Below are positions 31,404-50,117 of a stretch of DNA of 64,000 nucleotides, piece after piece. Made by a program: the position numbers and the translations under genes. Origin of the DNA: Tsuneonella deserti (GTDB lineage: Bacteria > Pseudomonadota > Alphaproteobacteria > Sphingomonadales > Sphingomonadaceae). Below the pieces are notes generated by a model. It had not been told where the DNA came from. It did no database searches and saw only the letters and a list, made by a program, of their open reading frames with translations. Every line of letters starts with the position of its first letter. Within the stretch, counting starts at the first letter, position 1. The stretch is taken from contig NZ_BMKL01000001.1 in NCBI RefSeq assembly GCF_014644315.1, forward strand, positions 124,001 through 188,000, in the 5' to 3' direction.

Positions 31404-31490
31404 GCGGTCGTGGCGGAATTGGTAGACGCGCAACGTTGAGGTCGTTGTGGGCGAAAGCCCGTGGAAGTTCGAGTCTTCTCGACCGCACCA
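31404..31490 (+). tRNA. tRNA-Leu(GAG)
   Basis: 87-nt class II tRNA: acceptor stem GCGGTCG pairs with CGACCGC, anticodon stem CAACG/CGTTG with loop TTGAGGT giving anticodon GAG (reads CUC/CUU), a long variable arm (GGGCGAAAGCCC), T-loop TTCGAGT and an encoded CCA end. It marks the left edge of the accessory island. Confidence 0.97.
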
Positions 31491-31678: not shown

Positions 31679-33361
31679 TCAGGAGAACCCAAGCTCGTGG
31701 CGCTGATCAGCCCAAGCCAGCGGCAAAGGCGTGTTCATCAGTCGCGCGGAAGTAAGATGGCCGGGCTGACTACCCTCGACGATCGCGATGACGATTTCGG
31801 GTGCGAGGCAGGAGAGCGCGATCAGCTTGCCGAGCCGTGTCCGGCAGCGGCCCTGTTCGCGCGCTATCGCCGCGATCGGCTTCTCACTGTTGGCTAGCAC
31901 TAGTTCCCTTGCCTGATGCGCTTCGGCAATGAGCGCAACGAGCTTATCATCACGACGTCGCGGCTTCGTGGCTGTATCAGCGGGGCCGGGGACTATGAGG
32001 CGTAGCTGATGACCCCTGCGCACCCGGACAGCCTGTATTGTAATGAGAGCGGGCTGGGGATCGTTCGGTCTGGTCTGCAACCCAAGGCGCTCGCAGATCG
32101 TGTCCGAATTGAGCTCGATCTCGACCTTGTCCTCGCGCAGCCTAACCTCCCGGACGAGCACAGCCAGTAATTCGGCTTTCGCGTGACCGTGACCGCTCCG
32201 CAAGGTTGCTGCGAGGAGATCTGCTTCGTTGGATGCTGCCTGGAGCTGTTCGGCGACTGGACTGGACGCCCCGGCGAGTTCGATGATGAACTGGCCGTCG
32301 GTCAGCTTCGATGCGATGCCCGAGCCCACAAGCTGCTCGAGGTCATGGGCCGACACACGCCAAGCGCGAGTGCCGTCGAGCTGGTCGGGGCGGGTAACGT
32401 AGTATCGGTAACGCCGTCGGGATTTAGTGGCATGGCTGGGTGTCATGGCCCGCCCCTCGCCATCGATCAGCTTACCAGCGAGAAGGCTGGGATGCCGGTG
32501 CCGCAGCCGGCGCGCGGAGCCGGACGCATTGACAGCGAGCAGTGCCTGGACCTCATCCCAGAGCTGCTCGTCGACGATCTGCTCGTGTTCGCCGGGATGG
32601 GCTGTGCCCTTATGCACGATGAACCCGCGGTAGATACGGTTCGTGAGCAGGTGATAAAGCGTCCCTCGGCGATAGATGCAGTCCCCGCGGTGCGGCCCGC
32701 TGCTCCGGTGCTGGACCTTGGTCCGATAGCCCTCGCGGTTCAGCTCCTCGGCCAAGGCTGGGACCGAGTTCAACGCGAGGTACCGGCGCATGATATGCCG
32801 GACCTGCCCGGCCTCAACTTCCTTCACGACCAGCTTGCGATCCCTGACCTCGTATCCGAGCGGGACCGGTCCACCCATCCACAGGCCCTTCTTCTTCGAG
32901 GCCGCGATCTTGTCGCGGATGCGCTCGCCGGTGACCTCGCGCTCGAACTGGGCGAACGAGAGCAGCATGTTGAGCGTGAGGCGTCCCATGCTGGTCGTGG
33001 TGTTGAAGCTCTGGGTGATGCTGACGAAGCTCGCTTCAGCCCGGTCGAGCACCTCGACGATCTTCGAGAAGTCGGTGAGGCTGCGGGTCAGCCGGTCGAT
33101 CTTGTAGAGAAGAATGATATCGACCTTTCCCGCATCGATGTCTGCAAGCAAGCGCTTGAGGCCAGGCCGCTCCATGTGGCCGCCCGAAAACCCGCCGTCG
33201 TCGTAGCGATCGTCCACCAGCACCCAGCCCTCGTGGCGCTGACTCAGAGCGTAGGCAGCGCACGCCTCGTACTGCGCATCAAGGCTGTTGAATTCCTGCT
33301 CGAGTCCGTCCTCGGTCGATTTGCGGGTGTAGACCGCGCAGCGCAGGACCTTCTCAGCCAT
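31679..33361 (-). CDS. Large serine recombinase
   Basis: 560-residue site-specific recombinase. The N-terminal resolvase domain has the nucleophile in AVYTRKSTEDGLEQ and the conserved YDDGGFSGGHMERPGL and DIILLYKIDRLTRSL motifs. A recombinase domain follows (residues about 160-270) and then a zinc-ribbon-like stretch in which some Cys ligands appear replaced (MTPSHATKSRRRYRYYVTR). It is the last gene of a three-gene leftward operon with DUF2924 and DUF3489 genes (eight-base overlap). This trio recurs in alphaproteobacterial mobile elements as I recall. It is probably the mover of at least part of this island. Confidence 0.93.
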   Translation of the reverse strand: MAEKVLRCAVYTRKSTEDGLEQEFNSLDAQYEACAAYALSQRHEGWVLVDDRYDDGGFSGGHMERPGLKRLLADIDAGKVDIILLYKIDRLTRSLTDFSKIVEVLDRAEASFVSITQSFNTTTSMGRLTLNMLLSFAQFEREVTGERIRDKIAASKKKGLWMGGPVPLGYEVRDRKLVVKEVEAGQVRHIMRRYLALNSVPALAEELNREGYRTKVQHRSSGPHRGDCIYRRGTLYHLLTNRIYRGFIVHKGTAHPGEHEQIVDEQLWDEVQALLAVNASGSARRLRHRHPSLLAGKLIDGEGRAMTPSHATKSRRRYRYYVTRPDQLDGTRAWRVSAHDLEQLVGSGIASKLTDGQFIIELAGASSPVAEQLQAASNEADLLAATLRSGHGHAKAELLAVLVREVRLREDKVEIELNSDTICERLGLQTRPNDPQPALITIQAVRVRRGHQLRLIVPGPADTATKPRRRDDKLVALIAEAHQARELVLANSEKPIAAIAREQGRCRTRLGKLIALSCLAPEIVIAIVEGSQPGHLTSARLMNTPLPLAWADQRHELGFS

Positions 33362-33776
33362 TGCCGGTCAGTCCGAAGAAGCGCGGGCCCGACCAGTGGG
33401 CACCGGTGACGTGGCGAGCGATCTCGCTCAAGGAGCGCCACGTGCGGTCGGCGAAGGCAAAGCCCTGCTCCAGCACTTCTACAGTTACGGTCTGCCCGTT
33501 CCACTCGCGCACGAGCCGGGTGCCCGGTGTGAGCTGGACCTTCGGGGGAGGAGGCGGGGCTGCTCCGCCTTGCGAGGTAACCCGCACAAGCTCGCGCGCG
33601 ACAAGCGCTGGCAGCGCAGCGTGGCGGCGCTCCTGCAGGCGCTGTGCGAGCAGGCGGCGCAACAGGGCCGTGGGAACCGAGGGAGGGGATGCCCCCTCCA
33701 TACCGATCCACTTCTCTTTTAGCTGCGCTGGCGAGAGGTCCGCCAGAGCCGCGAGTTCGGCTTCGAGTCGGCTCAC
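33354..33776 (-). CDS. DUF2924 domain protein
   Basis: 140 residues from a GTG at 33776, which overlaps the DUF3489 stop by four bases. The sequence LEAELAALADLSPAQLKEKW at the start and the C-terminal block GTRLVREWNGQTVTVEVLEQ, then GFAFADRTWRSLSEIAR, are characteristic of DUF2924. The C-terminal half resembles the small beta-fold often found beside recombinases. It overlaps the recombinase start by eight bases. Molecular role unknown; probably assists recombination or DNA binding. Confidence 0.88.
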   Translation of the reverse strand: MSRLEAELAALADLSPAQLKEKWIGMEGASPPSVPTALLRRLLAQRLQERRHAALPALVARELVRVTSQGGAAPPPPPKVQLTPGTRLVREWNGQTVTVEVLEQGFAFADRTWRSLSEIARHVTGAHWSGPRFFGLTGNG

Positions 33777-34108
33777 TGCGACACCGATCCGACTATCGCG
33801 TAGCGGCTGAGGCCGTCGAGCTTTGTCCGCTCTATCGCGTGGCCTTTCTTCCTGAGGGCCGTCAGTGCCGCGCGGGCGGAGTGGGGCAGCCACCCGGTTG
33901 CCTCGACCAGTTCGTCGAGTGTCGCGCCTCCCTCGCGCTTCAGTAGCGCGAGGGCGAAGTCAGTCTTGTTGGGCTTCTTCGTTTCCGAGGGCTCTCGAAT
34001 GGCGGGCGAAGCGCTATCCGAGCCTCCCGCGTCAAGCGTTCCATTGGCATTGCTGCTCGGTTGTCGCGCCATGCGGCGCTGGCGCTTCGTGGTGGCTGTG
34101 CTCTTCAC
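33773..34108 (-). CDS. DUF3489 domain protein
   Basis: 111 residues from a GTG at 34108 with TAGGAG eight bases upstream. The basic, disordered N-terminus (KSTATTKRQRRMARQ) is followed by a winged-helix-like domain: KTDFALALLKREGGATLDEL, then VEATGWLPHSARAALTALRK. This is the DUF3489 pattern, probably DNA-binding. It is the first gene of the DUF3489-DUF2924-recombinase operon and may be its regulator. Confidence 0.85.
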   Translation of the reverse strand: MKSTATTKRQRRMARQPSSNANGTLDAGGSDSASPAIREPSETKKPNKTDFALALLKREGGATLDELVEATGWLPHSARAALTALRKKGHAIERTKLDGLSRYAIVGSVSQ

Positions 34109-35310: not shown

Positions 35311-35952
35311 TTAAATGCCGGATCGGTAAGAAGCGGGCGAAGGGGGAGATTCGTCGCCCGAACTCGAGTCTGCGTTGAAGTCGAAGTGCAAAATCACCAA
35401 GCTTCGAAGGAGCGACCAGATTTGATGTTCGCTCGGTTCCTGGCCCAGATGTTCTGAGAGTATCGCCTTAACATCTTCCACAAACGCGGTTCGGATCGCA
35501 TGAGAGAAATCAGGCAGGCTGATACGGCGTATAAAGTCCGTGCCGGAATCACTGTCCCGAGCCCAATTAAGCACCGTTCGGTAATGGGCATCGGCCTTCG
35601 CGTTGAAGGTTGCAATCGCGATCCCGACGCGATGCAGCCCCGCATCGAACCCCTCGCCAGACACCGTATCCCATGCACGACGCACAGTCTCAGCCCATTC
35701 GGCACTTAGGCGTGTAAAGGTGACTTGTGATTTTAACTGCAAGCTGAGGCGGCTTTCACTCGAGCCTTGGCGTCCATCTATTATGAGATCATCCAGCGGC
35801 TCGCCGAGAGCGGCACGTTGTGTCCGAACTGTAACGGCGAACTGCCCCGCCAAGCCCCTCGCGGCAGTCTCAGTCAGTATGGAGGCAAGATAATAGGCGG
35901 CGACACGGTCTTCGAACCGGAATCCACCCCCACCCGTTCCATATGGTCCCAC
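35311..35952 (-). CDS. N-terminal nuclease half of a frameshifted DUF4297-like protein
   Basis: 213 residues from a GTG at 35952 with AGGAG nine bases upstream. The start GTGGGGFRFEDRVAAYYLAS, the strand LGEPLDDLIIDG and the following LSLQLKSQVTF match the PD-(D/E)xK-type nuclease domain (DUF4297/Cap4-like, Asp then Gln-x-Lys) that opens many anti-phage STAND and CBASS effector proteins. Downstream, WSLLRSLVILHFDFNADSSS also fits such proteins. The last residues (after GDESPP) look out of frame: removing one C restores an open frame into the following gene. Likely a DNA-degrading defence effector, now broken unless the shift is an error or programmed. Confidence 0.65.
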   Translation of the reverse strand: MGPYGTGGGGFRFEDRVAAYYLASILTETAARGLAGQFAVTVRTQRAALGEPLDDLIIDGRQGSSESRLSLQLKSQVTFTRLSAEWAETVRRAWDTVSGEGFDAGLHRVGIAIATFNAKADAHYRTVLNWARDSDSGTDFIRRISLPDFSHAIRTAFVEDVKAILSEHLGQEPSEHQIWSLLRSLVILHFDFNADSSSGDESPPSPASYRSGI

Positions 35953-43175: not shown

Positions 43176-45542
43176 TCACGACGTCCAAGTCGGCAACCCC
43201 GGCACCCTGGAGATGCCCAGCGCTTTGGAGAAGCGATCCTCGAGCTTCTCCAGCGCGAGGCCGAGGTATTCCCGGTCATGTTCATGTCCGCCTACGACGA
43301 GCGCGACCTGCTGGCCGATACCGGCTGCTAACCTCGCTATGGGCTTACCGAGTACGTCCGCCCGGGGGTGGATCTCCACGGCCTGCAAGGCGGCTTGGGA
43401 TGCGAAGTAAGCCGTGGCCAAGTACTCCAGCACGCGAAGTTGCTCGTTCTCCGTCTCCTCGATCCTGAGGTCCTTGAGAGCGAGGAAAGTCCCGAAGTGC
43501 TGCATGAGCAGGCGCCCCAGGAGGCGCGGCCAATCGTGGCCGGACTTGTCTGCAACAGGGAGGATCCCGTGCTCTTCCTCGCTTTCGACGAGGGGTTCAG
43601 TGTAGGCGAGTATGATCTGCAAGAGCGACCTTAGCCGAACGAGCTCGGTCGTGGTGATCGGCTTGCCGCGTAGGGCCTTTGCCCGCGCTTCGAACGCGGC
43701 AACTGCCTCGACGATCTTAGCGATGTAATCCCTCGTCCGCGTTCTTGCCGGCCTCTCGTCCCTAGGCGGCAATTCCACGGCACGGTTAGCGCCGGGCCCC
43801 TGGCCCGTTAGCGAAGTTGGTTCCTTGTTGGTGGGGTCTTGCGAGGCAATCCTCTGGAACTCCGCGTCCTCTTCCTCGGACAGGTCTCGTGACACGAGGC
43901 CAATCAGCCTGTTCAGGCATGAACTGACGAGATCGGCGGCCCGGTTGCCGCGGCCTCGCGGGAGGAAGGTGCTCTTATGCCGAGCCGCCTCGGCTCGCTC
44001 TCTTGCCTTCACGAAATCATCGTAGGTCAAGGTGGGGTGAGGGCGCGCTACCCCGTCCCCGTCGTCCTTTGCCCCCCCCTTGTTGAACTTGGTTTTCGAC
44101 GTGCCGATCTCTTCGAGGTCGATCGTCTCCAGTTCGACGAGGATTCCGACGAGTTCCAGGTCCTCGTGGGTCGCGCTCGACAGCTGGTCGGCGAGCTTCG
44201 CCTTTCTTCCAGAGCGCGGCGGAAGCGTGGAGGAAAATAGGACGTCGATATCTATGACCATGGCCACCGCCGAGAAGCTGCCGTCAGCTAATTGCAGGCG
44301 GGCGGACCTCGGGCGTCCCAGCGCGAGATCAAGGTGCCAGCTGGTCTCTTGGACACCACCGATGGCAAGGTCATTCCAAGGGCTTGCCCCGGTGCTATCG
44401 CAAGCGACGGCGCACCTTGGCCGTTCGAGCATGCCCAACGGCGGGGCCCAAGACATCCTGCTCCCGCGCAGCTGGAAGACGCCGGGCTCGGCAGGCGCTC
44501 GCCCATCGGCCACTACCGCGGATTTCGTCGGTTCGGCCAGGGAGCTTGGGTCCAGCGTTGATTCGAAATGGCCTTCCAGTCCGAGCAGGTGGAGCGCCGT
44601 TCCAGGTCTTACTCTCTTGTAAATCGCCGCCTCGGCGTTGCCCTTGGAAATCCTGCTCCCGAGAAGCGCCGGGACGGTGCAGTTCACGCTTCCCGAGACC
44701 ACGTGGTCCCAGTCTCGGCCAAGGGCGACAAGGAGCTTCGCGTGGTTGAAACGGCCACGCCCCTCCTCCTCGACGTCGTAGAGCTCGATGCCAACTCCGC
44801 TCTCGAAGCTGTGAGCCGGGAACTCTCCCCTGCTTTTCTCAATCAGGACGTCGGTAGCAGGCATGCCCAGCACCTCGCGAAGACGCTTGAGGCCCTCGAG
44901 CTTCTGGTCCCAGTAAGGAGACATGACGACCAGGCGCTCGATCTCGTCGTCACCGATCGCGGTGACTACTTGGTCCAGGATCGAGCCCCCTGGACGATCG
45001 AGGAGGAGAGACAAGTCCTCGCGCGAGGGGGCACCTGTCTCGGTGCCGTTACTCTCCAGCCAAGGTGTAAGCTGCAGCGCCCGTTCTCGCGCAACGGGAA
45101 ACCAAGGGTCTCCCGGCGGTGCATAGGACGCGATATAGTTGAATGCTTGCCGGAAGAGGGGCGCGAACGAGGGTTCTTCGGACGTGTAAACCAGGTCCGC
45201 TACGAGTTCCCGGTTGCCAGCAAGCCCCAGCGCCGTGAGATTCGCCGAGCCCACCAGGAGCCGGCCTGTTCTTTCCCCGATCAACAAGGCAATCTTGGGG
45301 TGAAAGGCACCGGGAACTTCGACCTTGGCCAAGTGATAAAGGGAGCCAGCGAAGCGCGGCGTTCCGAACTCCTCAAGGCTCAAGTTCAACATGCGCTGGT
45401 CGGCGAGTACCGTCACGTTGCGGCAACCTGCTCCCCTAAGTTTCGAAAACGGGATGTCTTCGAACGCCTGCGCGGAGAAGGCGAAGGTGGTCAGGAAGGC
45501 CGAGTGGTAACCGGGCTCCCCGAAGGCGTCGTAGTACTTCAC
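43176..45542 (-). CDS. Phospholipase-D-fold protein, probable defence component
   Basis: 788 residues from a GTG at 45542 that overlaps the upstream gene's stop (GTGA), so the two are translationally coupled. Two HKD half-sites are visible: FHPKIALL with GSANLTALG (His81, Lys83, Asn101) and FNHAKLLVAL with SGSVNCT (His268, Lys270, Asn287). That gives one complete PLD-type active site, as in nucleases and phospholipases of this fold. The C-terminal 480 residues have no known domain; a helical, charged segment (about 500-560) and a helical end domain follow. No signal peptide, so it acts in the cytoplasm, most plausibly as a nuclease effector. Confidence 0.78.
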   Translation of the reverse strand: MKYYDAFGEPGYHSAFLTTFAFSAQAFEDIPFSKLRGAGCRNVTVLADQRMLNLSLEEFGTPRFAGSLYHLAKVEVPGAFHPKIALLIGERTGRLLVGSANLTALGLAGNRELVADLVYTSEEPSFAPLFRQAFNYIASYAPPGDPWFPVARERALQLTPWLESNGTETGAPSREDLSLLLDRPGGSILDQVVTAIGDDEIERLVVMSPYWDQKLEGLKRLREVLGMPATDVLIEKSRGEFPAHSFESGVGIELYDVEEEGRGRFNHAKLLVALGRDWDHVVSGSVNCTVPALLGSRISKGNAEAAIYKRVRPGTALHLLGLEGHFESTLDPSSLAEPTKSAVVADGRAPAEPGVFQLRGSRMSWAPPLGMLERPRCAVACDSTGASPWNDLAIGGVQETSWHLDLALGRPRSARLQLADGSFSAVAMVIDIDVLFSSTLPPRSGRKAKLADQLSSATHEDLELVGILVELETIDLEEIGTSKTKFNKGGAKDDGDGVARPHPTLTYDDFVKARERAEAARHKSTFLPRGRGNRAADLVSSCLNRLIGLVSRDLSEEEDAEFQRIASQDPTNKEPTSLTGQGPGANRAVELPPRDERPARTRTRDYIAKIVEAVAAFEARAKALRGKPITTTELVRLRSLLQIILAYTEPLVESEEEHGILPVADKSGHDWPRLLGRLLMQHFGTFLALKDLRIEETENEQLRVLEYLATAYFASQAALQAVEIHPRADVLGKPIARLAAGIGQQVALVVGGHEHDREYLGLALEKLEDRFSKALGISRVPGLPTWTS

Positions 45543-47170
45543 GGCCGGGCGAGCTCCTCTGTCCCGAGGAGCGTGATCCCGCCGTCGTCTAGCAGCCGGC
45601 AATCGGCCAGGAACTGGAGGGCCTGGTCTATGCGCGGGCTGCTGGGCGATACGCGGAAGCCCTCGCGGTATCGCAATACGCCTTCGTCCGGCTCGAGCAG
45701 GAAGGTGTACGCCTTGTTGCGGAGCTTGCGGGAAGCAACCCAGAGGTGCCTCTTGATGACACGCTCCCTTGCGATTTGACCGATAGCCTCGCTTGCCGGG
45801 CGGTCTAGTAGCGCGTCGTAGTACCGGGCTTCTGAAACAAGGGACTGGAAGTAGTCGTCCACGTCCAACCATTCGAGGACCTCCGGGCTAAACTCCTTCG
45901 AGCGCCGGTAGAGCAGCGCCGTGAGCAGCACGGAGGACTTCACCATTTCATCGATCTCGCCCCGTTTCTCGGCAGCGAGCATCGCTTCGGCGAGCTCTCT
46001 CGGGGCCCGGTCAACGCCGGCGTCGGCGAGAAAGTCCCTGAAACTCTCGTTGCCCCGCATGCCTGCCTGATCTTGCAGGCTTGCGACGGCTTCCTGCACC
46101 GATAGCCGGGCGCCCGGTCCGCCGCGGACAGCGACGAGCGACGCGGTGAGCAAGCACTCGTATGCGAGCCTCCACAGGTCACATGCCTGGTAAAGTGCCC
46201 AGGCCTCGCAGACCTCGCTCGACAGGCCCTCTCCAGGCTGGGCCGCGAGCTCGAAGAACTCCCACTTGAGATCGGCGGTCCGCGGCCTTTTCCCTGCCGC
46301 GCCGGCCCGCGAAAGGAGTAGCCTTAGAGTTTCCCGTCGAGCCGCGTTGCCGCTCGACTGCGGGCCAAGGCGGCCAAGGAGTGCACCAGCCAAGCCGGCC
46401 TGCTCTGTGCTCCCTGCCTCGATCTTCGAGGGCAGGAACACCGAGAGGTCGTCGAGCTCGGCGATCGATGCCTTCCCGGAATCCAGCACCCTGAGAAACT
46501 CGCTCGCCCGGTCTCCTATTGCCTCTTCGAACCCCTGCGCGAGGGGAAGGGCCGCGCTAGTACAAAACGGGAGGCCAATCTCCTCGTCGGCGAGCTCGAC
46601 GAGGCCCATCTCCGCCATTTGCGTCGAGTAGATAGCGCCGAACGCGCCGCCCTTGTTTCGCAGGTATCGCCCTTCTGGGGCGGTGTCCGGGTCGGCCGCC
46701 TCCTCGAAGTCGATGACTTGGTTTGAGCCGGGACCTCCCTCGATTTGCGCGAGTTGGCGATTAGCCCAGTCTATGCCGGTGACCCCGAGCTCGCTTCCGC
46801 TACGGGCACATACCAGGGCCAGTAATGTCTCGGCTCGCCTATGGAACACGTTGAACGCGCGCGGGTCCGCCTGGCCGTTGGTCTTGGCGTACGCTTCGAG
46901 TGCCCACGTGAAGAAGGAGTAATAACGAAGGCGCAAGGTGATCGTGCTGATGCCTGGAAGAAGCGACTGGAAGAGCACCTCGATCGGGCGCTGCATCCCC
47001 AGCGGGTCCAGGCCGCTGTCTTGCCCGATTTCCGTCCACTGCGGGAAGCCGGGCCCTGCGTCGATCGCTTGACTTGCCAACAAAAGCCCCCTCGCGCGTT
47101 GCCGCTGCCGGGGCTGTGGTGTCGGCACGTCCCCGGCAAAGGCTTCTAAGTGCGGTGCCTGCTTGGTCAA
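45539..47170 (-). CDS. Unknown protein paired with the PLD-fold gene
   Basis: 543 residues; the first in-frame start is a TTG at 47170 without a clear ribosome-binding site, and a GTG at 47128 is an alternative. Near the N-terminus (about residues 66-92) LFQSLLPGISTITLRLRYYS is a distinctive block that, from memory, resembles the start of DUF6361-type proteins seen in defence islands. The rest is helical with no catalytic motif I can name. It is the first gene of a two-gene operon with the PLD-fold protein (four-base overlap), divergent from the truncated gene at 47315. Function unknown; probable sensor or regulator of the PLD effector. Confidence 0.68.
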   Translation of the reverse strand: MTKQAPHLEAFAGDVPTPQPRQRQRARGLLLASQAIDAGPGFPQWTEIGQDSGLDPLGMQRPIEVLFQSLLPGISTITLRLRYYSFFTWALEAYAKTNGQADPRAFNVFHRRAETLLALVCARSGSELGVTGIDWANRQLAQIEGGPGSNQVIDFEEAADPDTAPEGRYLRNKGGAFGAIYSTQMAEMGLVELADEEIGLPFCTSAALPLAQGFEEAIGDRASEFLRVLDSGKASIAELDDLSVFLPSKIEAGSTEQAGLAGALLGRLGPQSSGNAARRETLRLLLSRAGAAGKRPRTADLKWEFFELAAQPGEGLSSEVCEAWALYQACDLWRLAYECLLTASLVAVRGGPGARLSVQEAVASLQDQAGMRGNESFRDFLADAGVDRAPRELAEAMLAAEKRGEIDEMVKSSVLLTALLYRRSKEFSPEVLEWLDVDDYFQSLVSEARYYDALLDRPASEAIGQIARERVIKRHLWVASRKLRNKAYTFLLEPDEGVLRYREGFRVSPSSPRIDQALQFLADCRLLDDGGITLLGTEELARP

Positions 47171-47314: not shown

Positions 47315-47930
47315 ATGGGCGTCCCCATGTGGAGACCCGATACCTTCCTCGCCCTTCACGAAGACGTGATCACGTTCGCCTGGTCGGCGCCGATGCGCGA
47401 GCTCGCCGCGACGATCGGGATCAGCGACGTCGGTCTGAAGAAGCTTCTCAAGGCGCACGGCATCGCGACCCCGCCGCAGGGCCACTGGAACCGGGTGCAC
47501 GCGGGCCGCCCTGTCACCGCACCACCGAAGCCGCCCGCGCGCGGGCCGGGGGAGAGCGGTCGGGTGCGTCTCGACCCGCGGTTTCGCGGCCACGTATCCG
47601 AGGCCGCACCGATGCCCGAGGAGGGTCCGTTCGCCTCGCGGCTCGTGCCCGAGGATCTCGGCGAGCTTCGCGCGAACGAGCTGAAAGCGATCGGCAAGGC
47701 TGTAGCCCCGCGCGATCTCTCGCGGCCGCCGATCGGAATGGCCAGACTGCTGCGCAAGGAAAGGGAGCGCAGCGAGAAGGCGGCGGCCTCGCGCTGGTCG
47801 TCCGACGAGGCGCACTTCGACGGCGCGCTCGCGCAGCGCCAGCTACGCCTTCTCGCAGGGCTGCTCCTGGCGCTGGCCAAGCGCGGGCACGGTGGCGAGG
47901 TCTGGGAGGACACCTACGCGCTGCGGGGGT
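47315..47930 (+). pseudogene. 3'-truncated gene of unknown function at the island edge
   Basis: Begins with a natural-looking protein (LHEDVITFAWSAPMRELAAT, then ISDVGLKKLLKAHGIATPPQ with GHWNRVHAGRPV), a pattern I recall from proteins near mobile elements that carry a degenerate helix-turn-helix. Around 47920-47935 the sequence switches to autotransporter DNA. Past that point the frame continues to a stop at 48199 only as Arg-rich nonsense. So the gene has lost its 3' end. A start at 47327 is also possible. Confidence 0.6.
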
Positions 47931-50117
47931 TACGCGGTCGAGCAAAACGGCCTGCTCGGCGGCACGGTCTACGTTGGCGGAGCCTTCGGCTACGTCGACC
48001 CCACCGTGATGACGAGCGACATTACCGCGGTCATCGACCTCAACTCGGGATCGGTCACCGGCGGCGGCGTGGTGGCGGAATACGACGAGGAAACCGGCGA
48101 GCGCTTCACCTCGACGACGGTGAACCTCAACGGTTCGGGCTACCTGGGCCTGGGCGATACCGCTCTTGCCCAGCTCGAGGACGCGTTCGGCGACGTTGAT
48201 CCGCAGATCGCCATCGAAGGCGACCTGTCGGCCTATGCCGGCGGTGCGCGCGTCCTGGGCGTCGACGTGTTGAACAAGACGGGTTCGGGCGTGTTCCTGA
48301 TCACCGGCGCGGACTACATGCCGGTGACCAACACCAACCGGGTCGCCGACTACACGCTGGATCTCGGAGTCTTCACTATCAACGGCGGAGAAATCCAGCT
48401 GGCGACGGCGAGCGACGACGGTGTGTTCGGCATCCGCGGCGATATCCTGAACAACGCTGGCCTGGTGCTGGGCAGCCGGGTCGCCATCCCGGCTCCGCTG
48501 TTCGGCATCAACGCGACGGTCCAGGCGATCGACGGGGTCGAGGTCTACCAGAACGGCGACTTCACCCAGTCGGGCACGGGTACTCTCACCGTCGGTGTGA
48601 CGCCCACCCTGGTTCGCGTGTTCGATCCTGCCTACTCGAGCGTGAGTTTCTCGACCAACCCGCTGGCAGTGCAGCAGATCGGGCTCGCTTCCGGCCTCTT
48701 CACCACCCCGGAGAATGCCTACGGTCAGGCCTTCACGGATCTGGGCACCGGCTTCCTGACGGTCGACGGCGATCTGAACCTGGCGGGCAAGGTGCAGCTG
48801 GTCTCCCCGACCGGCGGCCTGTTCACCGACGGCCAGACCGTGGATATCGCGAGCGTATCGGGAGCGGTTTCCGCCACGGCAGACGTGGTGGTGAACAACG
48901 GATCGAACTTCGTGACCTTCGACCTGGGCACCCGCACTGCCGGCGGCCGGACCATCGTGTTCGCCAGCGCCGACCGCGCGGGTTACGAGACGGTTGGCAA
49001 CAACGACAACGCGATCGCGGCAGGCTCGGCGCTCAGCGCGGCGCTGCCTGACGTGGTGGCCCGCATCCGCGCCGGCTCTGTCGGAGGGATCGGCCTGGCC
49101 GGAGACCAGTTCGTCCTCGCCCAGGATCTGGCCAACATCTTCGTGGCCTTCGACACTCTGCTGACGAAGGACGAAGTCACGCTGGCCCTCAACGATCTGG
49201 CCTCGGGCGAGTTCTACGGCTCGCTGACGACCCTCTCGACCACCGCACCGTTCGTCGACGCCATCAGCACCTCGCGTGTTCCGCAGGGCGCCAGCGGGTT
49301 CAACCTGTGGCTCGCTCCATCGGGTGACTTCGTGAAGTACGACGGCAATGACGAAGTCGGCTCGAACAAGCTGCATGCCGATAACTACGGCATGTCGGGC
49401 GGGTTCGGAGTTGCCACCGGCAACGGCGAGCTCGGCATGGGCTTCGGCTACGGCCGGATCAGCGCCGATGCCCGCGACAACCTGCTGCAGGCGACTGCGG
49501 ACACCTGGATGATCGGGGCTTACGCCCGCCAGGCGTTCGGTCCCCTCGCGGTCGGTGCCGACGTGGTATACGGCTGGAGCGACTGGTCGGCTTCGCGGGT
49601 CATGCCCACGATGTCCCGCACCGCGCTGGCCGAATTCGACAGCACCGAACTGCGGGGTAACCTGCGGGCCGAGTACATGCTCGACCTCGGGGGCGGCTGG
49701 GTTGCTCCGTTCGCCCAGGTTGAACTGCGCAAGTACGACTTCGACGGCTTCACCGAAGAAGGCGCCGGAGCGGTCAACCTGATCGTCGATGAAGCCGATG
49801 ACACGGTCATCACCCCGTCGCTGGGTCTGCGTGCCGGAACCAGCTTCGAAACCGGAATGGCCACACTGCGGCCGGAACTGACGCTCGCCTACAGCTTCCA
49901 GGGCGACAACAACTCGTTCCGCGACGTGGCCTACACCGGGGCGCCGACCACTCCGTTCCGCCTCCAGGGCGTCGATCCCGACGGTTTCTTCACCATCGGT
50001 GCCGGCCTGTTCGCGGATATCGGCAAGAACTCGGGAGCGTTCCTGCGCGGCAGCTTCGCAACCGGCAGCGACGTCAACGTGGCCAGCCTCAATGCAGGTG
50101 TGACCATCGGGTTCTGA
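47892..50117 (+). CDS. Autotransporter barrel protein lacking its N-terminus
   Basis: The open frame codes 741 residues. The first 12-15 come from the truncated neighbour; real autotransporter sequence starts near GGYAVEQNGLLGGTVYVGG. A beta-helix-type passenger rich in Gly, Thr, Val and Asn follows to about residue 460. The C-terminal barrel (about 470-741) begins NLWLAPSGDFVKYDGND and ends in Phe, as type V barrels do. No signal peptide is present and the upstream passenger is missing, so the protein cannot be exported as it stands. A functional gene was cut by the island boundary or a deletion. Confidence 0.82.
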   Translation: MARSGRTPTRCGGYAVEQNGLLGGTVYVGGAFGYVDPTVMTSDITAVIDLNSGSVTGGGVVAEYDEETGERFTSTTVNLNGSGYLGLGDTALAQLEDAFGDVDPQIAIEGDLSAYAGGARVLGVDVLNKTGSGVFLITGADYMPVTNTNRVADYTLDLGVFTINGGEIQLATASDDGVFGIRGDILNNAGLVLGSRVAIPAPLFGINATVQAIDGVEVYQNGDFTQSGTGTLTVGVTPTLVRVFDPAYSSVSFSTNPLAVQQIGLASGLFTTPENAYGQAFTDLGTGFLTVDGDLNLAGKVQLVSPTGGLFTDGQTVDIASVSGAVSATADVVVNNGSNFVTFDLGTRTAGGRTIVFASADRAGYETVGNNDNAIAAGSALSAALPDVVARIRAGSVGGIGLAGDQFVLAQDLANIFVAFDTLLTKDEVTLALNDLASGEFYGSLTTLSTTAPFVDAISTSRVPQGASGFNLWLAPSGDFVKYDGNDEVGSNKLHADNYGMSGGFGVATGNGELGMGFGYGRISADARDNLLQATADTWMIGAYARQAFGPLAVGADVVYGWSDWSASRVMPTMSRTALAEFDSTELRGNLRAEYMLDLGGGWVAPFAQVELRKYDFDGFTEEGAGAVNLIVDEADDTVITPSLGLRAGTSFETGMATLRPELTLAYSFQGDNNSFRDVAYTGAPTTPFRLQGVDPDGFFTIGAGLFADIGKNSGAFLRGSFATGSDVNVASLNAGVTIGF

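Follow-up and report, generated by a model that had tools for sequence, protein, structure and literature searches.

The stretch analysed here (the window, 64,000 nt of Tsuneonella deserti contig NZ_BMKL01000001.1) carries on its minus strand two overlapping genes, designated A and B (Table 1), which lie in an island at a tRNA-Leu gene. By profile comparison, their products are distant homologues of ZacA (DUF6361) and ZacB (a phospholipase D, PLD, family protein) of the three-gene system Azaca. Sequence comparison places the pair beside the ZacA-ZacB core of Azaca, as a largely unannotated sister clade with no helicase gene of its own.

Architecture of the pair and of its products

On the coding strand, the A/B junction reads CCGTGAAG, where the TGA stop of A and the GTG start of B share four nucleotides (GTGA), just as the first-pass annotation of positions 43176-47170 had described it. 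An 898-aa open reading frame (ORF) listed for B was rejected as the extent of the gene, its surplus being an upstream extension within A. The true start of A is possibly internal: related loci such as L003 and L006 begin ~30-36 codons further in, and residues 1-54 of A have very low predicted confidence in the AlphaFold model. Comparisons with relatives refer to 33 pairs (the window and loci L002-L022, L047-L050, L066 and L068-L073). In 32 of these a possible start of B overlaps A, by 4 nt in 23 cases, B starts having been chosen as the in-frame start closest to the A stop, a choice that favours overlaps; the exception is L049, with a 259-nt gap between the genes. Two Sphingopyxis plasmids have an additional 191-aa gene that overlaps B at its end (L012:13869-14444; L018:13875-14450).

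The product of B contains both H-x-K...N motifs of the PLD superfamily in one PLD fold, and its active site, of the two-half type (H-x-K...N...E), is intact with both halves in one chain. The first half-site (His81/Lys83/Asn101) and N287 of the second stand as initially assigned, and the residues first numbered His268/Lys270 are in fact H267/K269. The residues of the second half-site are identical in all 33 pair proteins as well as in the ZacB proteins of all 15 Azaca loci compared, whereas E112 of the first half-site is replaced by D in each of the 15. The match to the Pfam family PLDc_2 (29.2 bits) exceeds its cut-off of 27. The PADLOC ZacB model matches with an E value of 3.1e-10, and hhalign aligns B with ZacB at a probability of 99.3% over 280 columns, ending at residue 317. 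The PLD region is homologous to that of ZacB, but PADLOC gives it 37.6 bits where a true ZacB reaches 570; the C-terminal part is unaligned. In the predicted structure (mean pLDDT 70.7), this part includes a helical domain preceded by a linker of very low predicted confidence.

The product of A is strongly conserved, in the family profile A3, over a core (residues 53-142) that coincides with the only region matching known families. The unusual block LLPGISTITLRLRYYS, singled out in the first-pass annotation, is real, falls within this family-matching stretch and is the ZacA signature motif. The ZacA and DUF6361 matches are weak and confined to residues 54-141: hhalign pairs A with ZacA at a probability of 94.7% over 88 columns, the PADLOC ZacA model matches residues 55-137 (E 1.7e-6, 25.9 bits), Pfam DUF6361 reaches 22.8 bits against a cut-off of 25, and an NCBIfam scan of A gave no match. 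The initial view that A has no known domain is corrected by these remote matches; the accompanying suggestion to compare A with DUF6361 was the right lead. The AlphaFold model of A (mean pLDDT 80.3) is mainly helical and ends in a strand pair with two helices, around a conserved block at P512/R513/D523; judged by eye, this end appears winged-helix-like.

Table 1. Positions of the A-B pair, its landmarks and associated features (window coordinates unless a locus is named)
Feature	Position	Strand	Remarks
Gene A, ZacA-like	45539..47170	-	543 aa, listed TTG start at 47170; ORF listing
A conserved core, residues 53-142	46745..47014	-	carries GLDPLGMQ...LLPGISTITLRLRYYSFF; inside ZacA-aligned part
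A C-terminal strand pair and two helices, residues 492-541	45548..45697	-	from modelled secondary structure
Gene B, ZacB-like PLD protein	43176..45542	-	788 aa, GTG start; ORF listing
B PLD half-site 1: H81, K83, S99, N101, T103, E112	45207..45302	-	identical in 33/33 pair proteins
B PLD half-site 2: H267, K269, S285, N287, N302, E304	44631..44744	-	
B C-terminal helical domain, residues 597-775	43218..43754	-	from the model; beyond ZacB-aligned part
tRNA-Leu (GAG)	31404..31490	+	left island end
Serine recombinase, Resolvase and Recombinase domains	31679..33361	-	Pfam 127.9 and 60.5 bits
DUF2924 gene of recombinase module	33354..33893	-	Pfam 130.9 bits
Truncated island gene beside A, divergent	47315..47928 (end approximate)	+	residues 9-192 have a 50.5% match in one plasmid record
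C-terminal remnant of host autotransporter	47892..50117	+	741-aa ORF
SNF2 gene and 568-588 aa gene	L003:5109-9937; L014:4985-9858		L003 SNF2 matches PADLOC DrmD, 729 bits

Conservation of the pair and its relation to Azaca

A genome scan with A (GTDB species genomes) yielded eight loci, with B directly after A in all eight, and tblastn against 72,556 plasmid records yielded 15 matching records, with the pair present in 9/9 examined (H7 was left out as the same match as H6, H11 and H12 as the same as H10, and H13-H15 for 11% coverage and lack of annotation). Four IMG/VR contigs also carry the pair. Altogether, B adjoins A in 34 of the 35 A-like loci of the pair group (one of them the broken pair L046), which speaks against the case, named as refuting in the first-pass annotation, that the two genes are not neighbours elsewhere. 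Apart from the 33 pairs stand L046, kept out of trees and distances, and L067, an A-like locus without B, kept out of pair counts. Among the 33, the B gene of L003 ends at 614 codons, and contig ends cut off A in L007 and B in L020; L004, L005 and L008 are near-copies of one another, as are L012 and L018.

At least two phyla have the pair, on plasmids and on islands. One locus, L005, comes from a Verrucomicrobia metagenome-assembled genome; this contig of 5 kb hardly differs from Paracoccaceae copies and is possibly misbinned. Mean identity within the 33 pairs is 29% for A and 25% for B, and the distances of A and B correlate closely (r 0.974, a value reached in 0/5000 permutations), to which the common ancestry of the loci contributes. 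The ratio of nonsynonymous to synonymous substitution rates (dN/dS) is 0.09-0.21 in both genes in five locus pairs, comparisons with the window being near saturation (dS 1.1-1.5), and both genes are under purifying selection. The adjacency in 34/35 loci together with the low dN/dS argues against chance. A divergent branch formed by L049 and L050 (A of 521-589 aa, B of 711-734 aa, type I restriction-modification genes nearby) is the earliest to split off among the pairs in the A tree.

The Azaca loci used for comparison encode ZacA, ZacB and ZacC contiguously in 15/15 cases (frames of 365-453, 570-692 and 1026-1261 codons); profiles were built from ten of them (ten of 45 Azaca-type plasmid records), the other five being independent. 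Two publications list ZacC as an SF1/SF2 helicase (PMC12278908) and a PLD-like domain among the components of Azaca (PMC10952713). With Azaca the pair shares the A-then-B order, the mostly overlapping genes, the ZacA signature motif, the identical H-x-K...N set in both halves of B, and the location on plasmids and islands. It differs in the greater length of A (mostly 504-561 aa vs. about 395-430 for ZacA) and of B (mostly 776-886 aa, including the C-terminal helical domain, vs. about 570-690 for ZacB), in E112 vs. D, and in that ZacC was found neither after B nor elsewhere in the genomes searched. A profile search found ZacC after B in 0/30 pairs having at least 3.3 kb of downstream sequence (L003, L005 and L020, with <1 kb after B, are uninformative). 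A whole-genome search detected it in 3/3 Azaca controls, did not find it in the genome of the window (G000), and gave a match in just one of 19 pair-bearing genomes (L005 and L007 are outside this set). This match, in L003, covers 46 positions (47.8 bits) at a helicase resembling DrmD; the ZacC profile also weakly matches the SNF2 genes located upstream of A in L003 and L014.

In the A tree, the pair group and Azaca fall on opposite sides of one branch with 100/100 support, and the B tree, a quick tree, gives the same split (Shimodaira-Hasegawa-like approximate likelihood ratio test, SH-aLRT, 100); both trees are flagged for long branches and uneven composition, so that the root and the deep order are unsure. 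Mean identity between the two groups is 15% for A and 16% for B. Rather than matching ZacA along its whole length, A reaches 25.9 bits over residues 55-137, whereas in a true Azaca locus (L074) PADLOC scores ZacA at 439.6 bits (residues 2-391), ZacB at 570 and ZacC at 1136; for the A proteins of L013 and L050 PADLOC gave no match. Assignment of the pair to Azaca itself was therefore rejected, given that ZacC was not found after B, that the clade is separate in both trees and that the ZacA match is partial. Thus, the first impression that this is no named system needs qualification: remote homology to ZacA and ZacB does exist, and both genes match a named system to that extent, with membership in Azaca failing.

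It could be argued that the pair is a degenerate Azaca that has lost zacC and is decaying, since ZacC was not found, L046 is broken and B of L003 is shortened. The 33 pairs, however, group together in each tree, strongly supported as one of its two sides, and their active site and signs of selection are intact, so that we regard this explanation as almost certainly wrong.

Two further arrangements were observed among the Azaca loci. A UvrD-type helicase gene lies before or beside zacABC in 7/15 loci (L052, L054, L074, L076 and L081; less clearly L053 and L055), mostly with an AddB-like PD-(D/E)XK gene, and these may possibly constitute a five-gene form of Azaca. In L080, a Bacteroidota plasmid, a type I restriction-modification operon holds zacABC between its hsdS and hsdR genes, an arrangement also seen for the pair in L017.

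The island at tRNA-Leu(GAG)

The pair is cargo of an island at a tRNA hotspot, as follows from the break of similarity at the tRNA, the shift in G+C content and the same-genus stretches without the pair. Similarity to same-genus genomes stops no more than 13 nt from where tRNA-Leu(GAG) ends (3' side) in 7/10 cases; in the other three it extends to ~34270 through the recombinase/DUF2924 module (L056, L062), which follows the same tRNA there, or to 31967 within the recombinase gene (L060). By blastn, the pair had no match in ten same-genus stretches at this tRNA (nine of 19.9 kb; L062, 4.7 kb), and A had no match in eight genomes of the genus that the census of the order lists. The G+C content is 0.56-0.63 between 34 and 46 kb vs. 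0.63-0.71 in most of the window. These observations confirm the first-pass description of the region as an accessory island, and the serine recombinase is its probable mover. The tRNA-Leu(GAG) seems to be an integration hotspot in the genus for the serine-recombinase/DUF2924 module with varying cargo (window 31490-~47928, L056, L060 and L062); related recombinases also shortly precede the pair in L004 and L019.

At the other end, a relative of the autotransporter (genome G1133) has a 2004-aa open frame that aligns only with residues 13-741 of the window ORF (729 residues, from 47928). From this sequence alignment the autotransporter was probably cut at the island junction, and this one relative suggests a right junction at ~47928. 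Further on, the segment from dcd to PutA (50911 on) recurs inverted in L057. Besides the pair, the island carries MucR and, as judged by eye, two histidine kinases and a response regulator. The truncated gene reported beside the pair is real, and the broken nuclease gene reported 8 kb away is probably a 213-aa fragment (35311-35952) at a distance of 7.2 kb. This fragment has a weak match (E 2e-5) to the N-terminal part of PDC-M54A, a candidate defence protein of 1657 aa, and of its six listed plasmid relatives one is annotated as NACHT.

Defence neighbours and proposed function

The reading that we favour, with moderate confidence, is that A and B together make up a nuclease defence module of two components, sister to the ZacA-ZacB core but helicase-less. 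The two genes are conserved neighbours, are mobile, occur near defence genes and retain an intact PLD site; the defence module proposed in the first-pass annotation survives as the best reading. The pair plausibly acts in the way that ZacA and ZacB do within Azaca, and it would probably protect the cell from invading DNA. Translated together with B, A would most likely bind nucleic acid or an infection signal and hold B inactive until then. B would be a PLD-fold phosphodiesterase, presumably metal-independent, that most likely cuts DNA of the invading element (RNA being less likely). Under this scheme, in which we infer defence, nuclease activity and gating by A alike, the module would work without a dedicated motor.

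A defence-type gene was found near 16 of the 33 pairs, a figure that is neither a maximum nor a rate since flank lengths and scan depth were unequal. Type I restriction-modification (R-M) genes lie near L010, L016, L017, L022 and L050, and L048 and L049 show a methylase match alone; MmeI-like type IIG genes near L006 and near L072, where a type IV enzyme is present as well; a C5 methylase near L008; DndC near L068; Zorya just upstream of the pair in L013; and AbiEii-type genes, by annotation, near L012 and L018. The broken pair L046 directly follows whole-looking hsdM, hsdS and hsdR genes. In two distant lineages (L003 and L014), a DrmD-like SNF2 helicase gene and an overlapping gene of 568-588 aa stand 67-72 nt before A. 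The latter has, by eye, the look of an actin/Hsp70-like ATPase; it had no match in Pfam (L003) or PADLOC (L003, L014). These two genes may belong to a four-gene operon with A-B or be a two-gene system of their own. A control count gave 17 N6_Mtase genes in the 19 pair-bearing genomes (78 Mb; 7/19 have none), and such a gene lies within 10 kb of the pair in four genomes vs. 0.10 expected (Poisson P 4.6e-6, an optimistic value, as the family was chosen after R-M genes had been seen beside pairs). Proximity to defence genes, which the first-pass annotation had proposed to check, is thus above chance for the one family tested.

The same neighbours provide the case for the main rival to an autonomous module, namely that A-B is a plug-in nuclease cassette using the motors of its neighbours (HsdR, ZorD or the DrmD-like SNF2) as Azaca would use ZacC. 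Consistent with it are the pair of L017, lodged between hsdS and hsdR, the SNF2 genes of L003 and L014, the Zorya genes of L013, the type I R-M genes near L010, L016, L022, L046, L048, L049 and L050, and the Azaca genes within the R-M operon of L080. No match to a limited set of helicase and R-M representatives was found, however, around the pairs of the window, L002, L004, L009 and L047, and the close pairs window/L003 and L014/L048 differ in the presence of SNF2 genes, so that the motor partner is not fixed. We consider a plug-in role unlikely. A broader alternative views the pair as a new, autonomous two-gene system that is not Azaca: the PLD nuclease and its partner, the protein whose end is winged-helix-like, would detect and cut invading nucleic acid either motor-free or by borrowing a local motor (HsdR, ZorD or DrmD-like SNF2). 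We entertain it as a tentative possibility.

The strict pairing, the A-before-B order and the overlapping genes would also suit an abortive-infection or toxin-antitoxin-like device, in which A neutralises B and B, as a toxic nuclease and perhaps as an RNase, harms the host once phage is sensed; PLD folds do include RNases. Yet A (about 500-560 aa) is much bigger than usual antitoxins and is conserved at least as well as B (29% vs. 25% mean identity), and the Azaca relatives act with a helicase gene, which leaves this option quite improbable. A role outside defence, such as DNA-end repair or processing on mobile elements, could be read from the superposition of the PLD domain of B on the repair enzyme Tdp1 in structure comparison and from the frequent plasmid location. 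The rare and patchy distribution, the island location and the defence neighbours are unlike a repair gene, and we give such a role very little credence.

Returning to the defence module, several observations weigh against it. Its neighbours may reflect nothing but shared islands, and no intact known defence protein was detected among the ten island proteins of the window that were scanned. The group is rare: with profile A3 at E 1e-3, 11 of the 396 genomes in the census of the order match (four strongly, own genome included, two divergent and five Azaca), and at E 1e-8 the matches are 6/398 in the phylum sample and 4/385 in the class sample, G000 and G471 being in both. One relative (L046:9057-12655, genome G219) is broken, with A in two pieces and B in three, and B of L003, the nearest relative of the window, ends after 614 codons (L003:11548-13392). 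The latter stop lies 120 bases before the contig end, at the point where similarity to other B proteins ceases, and reflects either an insertion or an assembly edge. Structure and fold searches with A returned no convincing PDB relative or fold match, for which reason the role given to A is a guess. In the structure comparison with B, the scores of PLD3, PLD4 and Tdp1 are equalled or exceeded by those of phospholipase D and phosphatidylserine synthase, and the fold thus does not settle the substrate. To our knowledge, no member of the pair clade has been subjected to an activity or phage test.

Other known systems were also compared. With DrmC of DISARM, named as a comparison in the first-pass annotation, B shares the PLD half-site motif and the occurrence in defence loci, but the match is limited to 15-20 bits over ~30 residues, and this sub-threshold similarity is a weaker lead than DUF6361. 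Membership in DISARM (DrmC with DrmA, DrmB and a methylase) was rejected, NF038319 scoring 14.8 bits against an NCBI cut-off of 133; no Drm protein matched among the ten scanned island proteins. PDC-M27B, a candidate PLD protein of PADLOC, shares the PLD motif (18.9 bits), but over 37 residues only, and no M27 match occurred among the same ten proteins. The DNA-end phosphodiesterases PLD3/PLD4 and Tdp1 are eukaryotic, with 8-14% identity to B, and we know of no A-like partner for them. Our searches of open-licence literature returned no mention of DUF6361 and no two-gene PLD nuclease phage defence system, and ZacA/ZacB/ZacC searched together gave an unrelated match only.

Overall, this clade is probably missing from current defence counts, because Pfam DUF6361 misses A at its cut-off, PADLOC ZacA/ZacB match the pair weakly and the genes are annotated as hypothetical proteins (A in 9/9 and B in 8/9 of the plasmid regions). 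Azaca is listed among systems of unknown mechanism in one review (PMC12926258). A natural helicase-less version would split the question of how Azaca works, with A-B alone representing the task of the nuclease core and the contribution of ZacC emerging by comparison. If the pair does act autonomously or by borrowing a local motor, ZacA-ZacB would represent an ancient, swappable nuclease core.

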